Origin: Candidatus Zixiibacteriota bacterium
Lineage (GTDB): Bacteria > Zixibacteria > MSB-5A5 > GN15 > FEB-12
Length of the DNA: 55,022 nt
NCBI GenBank assembly: GCA_034003725.1
Contig: JAVEYB010000016.1
Span: 1 to 55,022 of the forward strand
Reading direction: 5' to 3'
Shown here piece by piece: positions 1 to 55,022 of the stretch. Position 1 is the first letter of the stretch; every line of letters begins with the position of its first letter. Position numbers and translations under genes: made by a program. The notes beneath the pieces are model-generated. The model ran no database searches, had not been told where the DNA came from, and saw only the letters and a program-made list of their open reading frames with translations.

Positions 1-55
1 CGGCTTCCCTGAGGATGCCGACGATCTGTGTCTCACTGAATCGTGATCGTTTCAT
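1..55 (-). CDS. IS3-family transposase OrfA, N-terminal fragment cut by the window edge
   Basis: Eighteen codons are visible, reading MKRSRFSETQIVGILREA. This is the standard opening of IS3-family OrfA, a helix-turn-helix protein that binds the terminal repeats and is normally fused to the OrfB integrase by frameshifting. The start is the ATG at 55-53, with AGGAGG five bases upstream. The rest lies outside the window, so intactness cannot be judged. It sits beside a dispersed repeat, which suggests that this edge is a repeat-rich breakpoint. Confidence 0.7.
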   Translation of the reverse strand, partial: MKRSRFSETQIVGILREA

Positions 56-125
56 AGAGTCCTCCTGGCTGTAATATGCCAAAAAGCTCTACTTCACGAC
101 AGTCTACTGTTTGGGGGAGTTTACG
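1..125 (-). mobile_element. Left-edge remnant of an IS3-family insertion sequence
   Basis: The minus strand at the window edge starts an IS3-type OrfA and is preceded by a good ribosome binding site. The element should therefore continue beyond position 1. The C-rich stretch read on the minus strand from about 127 to 103 (AAACTCCCCCAAACAG) is a plausible terminal inverted repeat, but the opposite end is not visible, so the boundary near 125 is a guess. No target-site duplication can be tested. Confidence 0.55.
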
Positions 126-150
126 CGTGTCGCGCAGGCCCTCGTGCGCT

Positions 151-385
151 CCCGCACTTTTCCTACCAACCCGATGGAAAAAACGGCATCGCCCCCTTAT
201 GTAGCAGGAGGAAACGATGCCGTACATATCCGACATTCATGTTTACCTGTTCCGGAGCCGTAAGTCGTTACCCGAACCTCTCGTGGGAGGGGAGGGGAAA
301 TGGGACCCCCTAAAAATGACAAAACAAACCCATTTCCGCGTAACTCGCGGGGAGTCACGCTTGTATGACGACTTTTTTGTTTCGG
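151..385 (+). repeat. Composite dispersed repeat, left copy (inverted relative to 54465-54710)
   Basis: Two blocks recur in inverted orientation at the right end of the window. Block 1 (151-183) is identical over 33 bases to the reverse complement of 54678-54710. Block 2 (300-337) matches the reverse complement of 54512-54549 at 37 of 38 positions, and weaker similarity runs on to about 385. The blocks are 116 bases apart here and 128 there, in the same relative order. Block 2 is bounded by short inverted repeats (GGAAATGGG and CCCATTTCC). No gene is supported in 56-444. Confidence 0.85.
183..222. other. Stem-loop in the left intergenic region
   Basis: ACGGCATCG at 183-191 is perfectly complementary to CGATGCCGT at 214-222, with a 22-base loop. 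There is no T-run directly after it, so it is not a typical terminator. It lies between the two blocks of the composite repeat. Confidence 0.55.
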
Positions 386-54255: not shown

Positions 54256-54277
54256 TCTATATTCCTTCCGCAAGCAC

Positions 54278-54410
54278 GCGTGGTGCACGGGGACGTACAC
54301 CACGCACCGGCTGTGTGTGACCGCGTGGTGCACGGGGACGTACACCACGCACCGGCTGTGTGTGACCGCGTGGTGTACGGGGACGTACACTGCGCGCAGC
54401 GGGTGTGATC
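54278..54410. repeat. 45-bp palindromic tandem repeat, three units
   Basis: Units at 54278-54322 and 54323-54367 are identical; the third (54368-54410) is diverged. Each begins with an inverted repeat (GCGTGGTG, a 12-base loop, CACCACGC), so each unit can form a hairpin. The core GGGGACGTAC recurs singly at about 54717 and 54804, and as GGAGACGTAC near 54590. Because 45 is a multiple of three, a repeating peptide frame appears, but it has no gene context. Confidence 0.9.
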
Positions 54411-54464
54411 TTCTTGCGGCACATAGCCTTTCCTGAACCGACAGCCGGTTGTCAGCCCGTTCCC

Positions 54465-54710
54465 CAATCCAAGAAAGTCGCTGTACAAGTGTGTCCGCGA
54501 GAGGGTTACGGGGAAATGGGTTTGTTTTGTTATTTTTAGGGGGTCCCATATTTCTTTTCTTTCCGATCGGAGGCAGGACTTGCGGCGCACGGAGACGTAC
54601 GGTGCGCACGAGGGCAAGGGTTGTGCTATCGACAGCGGCATGGCAGTTCCTCTCATTTACTTATAGCGGGGCGGCCATTTTTTCCATCGGGTTGGTAGGA
54701 AAAGTGCGGG
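54465..54710 (-). repeat. Composite dispersed repeat, right copy (inverted relative to 151-385)
   Basis: Contains 54512-54549 and 54678-54710, the inverted counterparts of 300-337 and 151-183. Similarity beyond the blocks, in the GTACAAGTG region around 54483, is weaker. The order and orientation of the two blocks are conserved. No protein gene is supported from 54256 to the end. Confidence 0.85.
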
Positions 54711-54749
54711 GTGTACGGGGACGTACGGTGCGCATGGGAACCGGTGGGA

Positions 54750-54837
54750 GGGGTGGTGGTGTCAGCACCGTTTGCGGGAGAGGTTGGTTTAGTTCGTGGA
54801 GTCAGGGGACGTACAAACGGAGCTGACCTACGGGTAG
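54750..54837 (+). repeat. 88-bp direct repeat, first copy
   Basis: This stretch is repeated at 54935-55022. The first ~45 bases and the last ~24 are nearly identical, while the middle has diverged. Each copy contains the small stem GGTG-TCAG-CACC and ends with CAAACGGAGCTGACCTACGG followed by GTAG. The spacer between the copies is 97 bases and shows no gene. Confidence 0.9.
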
Positions 54838-54934
54838 GACGCAGGTGGAAAACAAAATGCGTGGGGAGACGGTGCGATTTGACCGAACCCCGACGTTCGC
54901 CACGGCGGGTGGGCACCGGACGAAACGGAATGAA

Positions 54935-55022
54935 GGGGTGGTGGTGTCAGCACCGTTTGCGGGAGAGGTTTGTTTAGTTTGACGAGTTGGTGGATGTGCA
55001 AACGGAGCTGACCTACGGGTAG
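54935..55022 (+). repeat. 88-bp direct repeat, second copy, ending exactly at the window edge
   Basis: The second copy of 54750-54837 ends at the last base of the window. That coincidence is expected if the sequence is an assembly contig that stopped at a repeat. Confidence 0.9.

Follow-up and report, generated by a model that had tools for sequence, protein, structure and literature searches.

Why should a bacterial contig begin and end with inverted copies of the same noncoding repeat? The window analysed here is a complete contig of 55,022 nt (C16, positions 1-55022) from a genome of 3.73 Mb in 35 contigs, and it carries at either end a composite element of ~230-240 bp, the two copies being inverted relative to each other (Table 1). 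The original prediction described two inverted block pairs at the window ends: a repeat search of the window recovered both in longer form, with 151-203 pairing with 54658-54710 (53 nt, 85% identity) and 300-379 with 54470-54549 (80 nt, 83% identity), and the order and orientation claimed for the blocks were borne out. Indeed, an inverted match of 33/33 within 55 kb is far beyond chance. The terminal inverted repeats ascribed to the second block fared less well: they are perfect in copy 1 (GGAAATGGG and CCCATTTCC) and only there, as copy 2 has GAAATATGGG, most copies in the sister species are without them, and the feature is not conserved across copies. As both contig ends lie in repeats, the mirror symmetry is most likely due to contigs ending where repeats lie, rather than to a 55-kb unit; judging from these two contig ends, metagenome assemblies appear to be interrupted by copies of the element.

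Table 1. Coordinates of the two element copies in the window, and of Y1_Tnp genes close to element copies in the window's genome (G000) and its sister species (G001)
Feature	Position	Strand	Basis
Element copy 1, short (gene-less) form	149..377	+	both ends homologous to 47 copies
5' block of copy 1 (first block of the original prediction)	151..183	+	repeat search, genome pattern search
RBS-like AGGAGG and ATG (217-219) of copy 1	206..219	+	sequence; comparison with full copies; short-copy scan
3' core of copy 1 (second block of the original prediction)	300..337	+	genome copy searches
GTAAC, spacer of ~15 nt and tail CTTGTATGACGACTTTTT of copy 1	340..377	+	gapless alignment, 56 copies
Element copy 2, short (gene-less) form	54474..54712	-	98% identity to L149
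5' block of copy 2	54678..54710	-	repeat search
GAGG and ATG (54641-54639) of copy 2	54639..54652	-	comparison with full copies
3' core of copy 2	54512..54549	-	genome copy searches
Tail CTTGTACAGCGACTTT of copy 2	54474..54489	-	sequence, tail-site search
Y1_Tnp (RAYT-like) genes near copies	G000 C12:107901, C4:227599, C11:602; G001 C1:872140, C4:330245		

Other repeats are also found in the window. Beside copy 1, the contig end seems to fall within an insertion sequence: the reverse strand of positions 1-53 encodes MKRSRFSETQIVGILREA, which we take to resemble the N-terminus of an IS3-type transposase. Copy 2 is adjoined by REP-like 45-bp tandem repeats with a GCGTGGTGCACGGGGACGTACACCACGC palindrome (54277-54411 and 54706-54733), and a direct repeat of 89 nt (90% identical, 185 bp apart) occupies 54749-55022 and reaches the contig end. 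Additionally, there is a tandem array of ~9-10 units of a 20-bp repeat at 1565-1764.

The copies were sought in the window's genome, the sister species and a third genome (G002), all of one genus. Allowing up to three mismatches, the second block has 23 copies in the window's genome, against no control matches, and a 28-nt core is present at 47 places in G000, 30 in G001 and 12 in G002, whereas other genera of the same family and order have a few at most. The exact form of the first block seen in the window has three copies in the genome, whereas its general form, CACTTTCNCTACNANNTCGATGG, occurs at 47 places, compared with two for a reversed-pattern control. The two ends form a single family: a 5' block lies upstream (within 260 nt and with at most six mismatches) of 35 of the 47 cores, the corresponding numbers for antisense and shuffled controls being one and zero. 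All mapped copies are intergenic, with none of the 65 that were read with their flanks falling inside a predicted gene. The dispersed family that had been proposed is thus supported by many copies at unrelated loci and by amplified short subfamilies (see below), and the further copies in the genome and its relatives do not lie within one segmental duplication.

Read from 5' to 3', the element starts with CACTTTCNCTACNANNTCGATGGAAAA, followed by a C-rich stretch ending in CCCCTTAGTAAA or similar and usually by an RBS and ATG; a variable interior and then a purine run precede the core, CCTAAAAATGACAAAACRAASCCATTTCGCYGTAAC. On the 3' side of the core, a stretch that varies in sequence but is constant in length (~15 nt) leads to the tail CTTGTACRRYGA, after which comes CTTTTT or AAAAAG. 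In an alignment of 56 copies, the 3' half is gapless over ~62 nt. We considered whether CTTGTACRRYGA might be a pre-existing target site and rejected this: nearly all tail sites in the window's genome follow a core, coreless sites being nearly absent, and so the tail is part of the element and not of the target. The spacer between GTAAC and CTTGTAC (~15 nt) largely differs in the ~97%-identical pairs L138/L141 and L165/L170, with length and tail motif kept. Indeed, L138 and L141 are 97.5% identical over 277 bp, yet the sequence switches abruptly after GTAAC; for L005 and L149, the agreement continues through the tail. In many copies (e.g. L016 and L081 versus L092), the six bases 3' of CTTGTACRRYGA are often either CTTTTT or AAAAAG, which are mutual reverse complements, as would follow from an inversion of the stretch. 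Regarding the window itself, copy 1 belongs to a spacing class, with the 5' block ~154 nt before the core, that it has in common with L139, and copy 2 is 98% identical over 245 bp to a copy on contig C22 (L149), the immediate flanks of the two being different.

The relationship between these short copies and a longer form is revealed by three gene-bearing copies within the genus (L165 and L170 in the window's genome and L182 in the sister species), which have an ORF of 197-199 aa between both blocks that ends just before the core, giving a full-length element of ~785 bp. Short copies retain the start region and the 3' end of this gene, and most of them keep its RBS and start codon: in copy 1, the AGGAGG and ATG occupy the gene start site of the full-length copies, whereas copy 2 reads ATGCCGCTGTC in its start region, as full copies do (ATGCCGCTATC), and keeps CGGAAAGAAAAGAAA from the gene end. 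These long forms, sharing both ends with the short ones, support the non-autonomous mobile element put forward in the original prediction, for which the internal gene, the hypervariable spacer, the conserved tail and the spread beyond the genus were out of reach from the window alone. L165 and L170 share 96.8% identity across 784 bp and differ in their flanks on both sides, and their genes differ by nine synonymous and one non-synonymous codon changes, an excess that indicates that the gene has stayed under purifying selection. The short copies fall into subfamilies with shared interiors at unrelated loci (with 14, 6, 2, 2, 2 and 2 members), in which L139 is the partner of copy 1 and L149 that of copy 2; since the short copies mostly keep the RBS and start codon and form such subfamilies, the gene-less form has itself multiplied.

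The encoded protein, recognizable by the motif NAQKSTGP...KHGL, belongs to a family encoded by 36 of the 61 related genomes, each with up to eight matches, and gene and element ends are associated across genera: of 67 family genes, 33 have a core no more than 150 nt from the stop codon (the counts for the antisense, upstream and shuffled controls being 1, 3 and 1, respectively), and the 5' motif is upstream of 18 of 66, compared with 0 in each of three controls. By the 150-nt criterion, about half of the family genes are without a recognizable core. Where cores lie wholly inside the ORF, all three reading frames are represented, which argues for conservation at the level of DNA rather than protein; a conserved protein sequence across the core was accordingly rejected, the core also often lying beyond the stop.

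Has the element moved? We infer that it has, from a comparison of sequences in which near-identical full copies have different flanks, short copies form subfamilies, and the corresponding interval in the sister species lacks the element present at L147. Additionally, the interval of L165 holds a gene-bearing copy in the window's genome and a short copy in the sister species. Some 10 loci share flanking genes between these two genomes; judging by coordinates, the element orientation is opposite at about three of them, and the spacer sequences agree clearly at only one. These shared loci fit old insertions with vertical inheritance or insertion hot spots equally well.

On balance, we favour the interpretation that the window repeats are MITE-like, gene-less and non-autonomous copies of an undescribed small mobile element, whose protein, together with a partner recombinase, probably spreads them in trans. 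The full element would comprise the 5' block, an RBS, the gene for the NAQKSTGP...KHGL protein of ~200 aa, the core AAAAATGACAAAACRAASCCATTTCGCYGTAAC, the fixed-length spacer and the tail, with the short forms having presumably lost the gene but neither of the ends. The conserved ends, whether of a full or a short copy, are most likely the binding sites of the protein, which would drive movement as the partner of a host or other recombinase, thereby allowing gene-less copies to spread in trans, and the enzyme that cuts and joins the DNA would not be encoded by the element. Several observations count against this model: no target duplication is visible by eye at the ends of near-identical pairs, a base-exact empty site was not found, terminal inverted repeats are missing, about half of the family genes are coreless by the criterion used, some 10 loci have flanking genes in common with the sister species, and Y1_Tnp genes near several copies could be another mover. 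Moreover, the protein is without a known catalytic domain for cutting and joining DNA.

Bacterial MITEs offer the closest comparison in several respects: they too are short, dispersed and intergenic, derive from gene-bearing forms whose two ends they share, and have multiplied as subfamilies. In contrast to MITEs, CACTTTC... at one end of the element and ...CTTGTACRRYGA at the other do not form an inverted repeat, a target duplication was not seen at the copies compared, and the gene of the putative parent form, whose two ends are those of the short copies, matches no transposase family in Pfam, NCBIfam or the PDB. Given the missing terminal inverted repeats and a parent gene that is no known transposase, the element behaves like a MITE system but is not classed as a member.

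The proximity of Y1_Tnp genes makes for a serious rival, albeit one that we regard as rather unlikely, in which a RAYT-type Y1 (HUH) transposase encoded elsewhere moves the short copies, as is thought for REP/REPIN sequences, with the NAQKSTGP gene serving as cargo or as a regulator. REP/REPIN sequences with their RAYT (TnpA-REP) transposases resemble the element in being intergenic, present in many copies and matched with a proposed protein partner, and all three Y1_Tnp genes in the window's genome, together with two of the five in the sister species, lie within ~1.2 kb of element copies; moreover, the same spacers are rich in REP-like palindromes. However, repeat-rich spacers may simply gather both Y1_Tnp genes and element copies, and the third genome (92% complete) has its 12 cores but no Y1_Tnp match. 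The element also differs in kind: its unit is ~230 bp and without conserved palindromic ends, these ends are not REP palindromes, and a conserved hairpin was not found in it. The linked gene is that for the NAQKSTGP protein and not Y1_Tnp, and it is this gene, rather than the Y1 genes, that the core tracks.

It is less probable still that nothing has moved, and that we are looking at an old gene family whose untranslated ends are conserved and whose decayed copies persist in spacers, shuffled by ordinary duplication and repeat recombination. The loci shared with the sister species and the failure to see a target duplication are consistent with this, and the abrupt change in similarity after GTAAC in near-identical pairs fits recombination or gene conversion between copies. 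Nevertheless, gene-less copies with the same interior are present at 14 and at 6 unrelated loci, sets that independent decay does not give; furthermore, the gene has been lost while both ends were kept, and the 47 copies far outnumber the gene copies.

Finally, a structured non-coding RNA or cis-regulatory element, the other option in the original prediction, is very improbable: the copies are intergenic, the ~62 nt of the 3' half are conserved as well as gapless, and local GC hairpins are seen in the interior of some copies in the sister species, but RNAalifold found no consensus fold or stem for the 3' half in the 56-copy alignment, the GTAA/TTAC positions (the one candidate stem) show no covariation above shuffles, no Rfam family matches the element, and neither orientation nor neighbouring gene is fixed across the 65 copies. 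RNA structure was rejected as an explanation on the first three of these grounds, and a gene-regulatory leader because no orientation or neighbour preference is clear.

Constant spacing without pairing suggests instead a protein-binding site on DNA, which brings us back to the mobile-element interpretation and its protein. Alignment of the family reveals 13 invariant residues: N10, N13, G19, P20, G25, K26, N32, G37, P70, W87, R88, R91 and E96. The protein has no match in Pfam or the PDB and weak, irrelevant matches only in PHROGs and NCBIfam. An AlphaFold model (mean pLDDT 80, pTM 0.59) is nearly all helical, with an N-terminal part of two helices followed by a long helical hairpin, and has no recognized enzyme fold. 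A fold search of PDB and viral structures gave no match with E <0.001, and a second gave generic long-helix matches only, at Z ~8 or less, which span residues 69-199 and so hardly probe the N-terminal module. The element protein is probably DNA-binding. Nothing was found on the protein motif or on Zixibacteria repeats among open-licence papers, and a family with this representation in the related genomes, and with relatives in other phyla and phages, is without an entry in the family libraries searched. If the protein does drive the repeats, a widespread kind of mobile DNA with no recognizable transposase has been overlooked; the two-ended sequence signature makes such elements easy to find and to test.

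A search of a species-representative collection with the core pattern returned 78 stretches, mostly in Zixibacteria/GN15, although bins labelled Rhodospirillaceae, Planctomycetota, Nitrospinaceae, Sumerlaeota and Chthoniobacter were also represented. Several matches outside Zixibacteria consist of the 25-nt core alone, and one lies inside a coding sequence; some of them may be due to chance or bin contamination. In a Planctomycetota sample, 6 of 119 genomes have the protein at E ≤1e-8, and the loci read, several of which are truncated, show no core close to the family genes. A related-looking motif, AAAAATGAAAAAACAAAGCCATTTT, recurs in Rhodospirillaceae bin.380 loci (e.g. L084, L112 and L131), in several of which it sits just after apparent stop codons; this may be a different repeat family.

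The viral collection contains a single core match (L135), where again the gene is followed by the core, and a profile scan of viral contigs identified 26 loci with the N-terminal module. In five phage proteins (L236, L238, L247, L250 and L311), the NAQKSTGP...KHG module is accompanied by a cysteine cluster, and the gene lies directly upstream of one encoding ~600 aa. One such neighbour has a weak match to a PHROG large terminase, and from this match and the gene position, the phage NAQKSTGP proteins are possibly an unrecognized small-terminase family. The proteins in the small-terminase position (e.g. L236, L247 and L250) share the N-terminal module with the element protein, but have a different C-terminal half, with the cysteine cluster, and no core motif was noted for them; conversely, the element protein has only this module in common with a small terminase subunit (TerS), and no large-terminase neighbour. 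We can propose only tentatively, and with some doubt, that the element represents a distinct class of bacterial mobile element extending beyond one phylum, whose sole protein would be a small helical DNA-binding factor, N-terminally related to these phage proteins; rather than encoding a transposase, it would spread both its own copies and the gene-less ones by recruiting other machinery, either a recombinase of the host or the packaging system of a phage.
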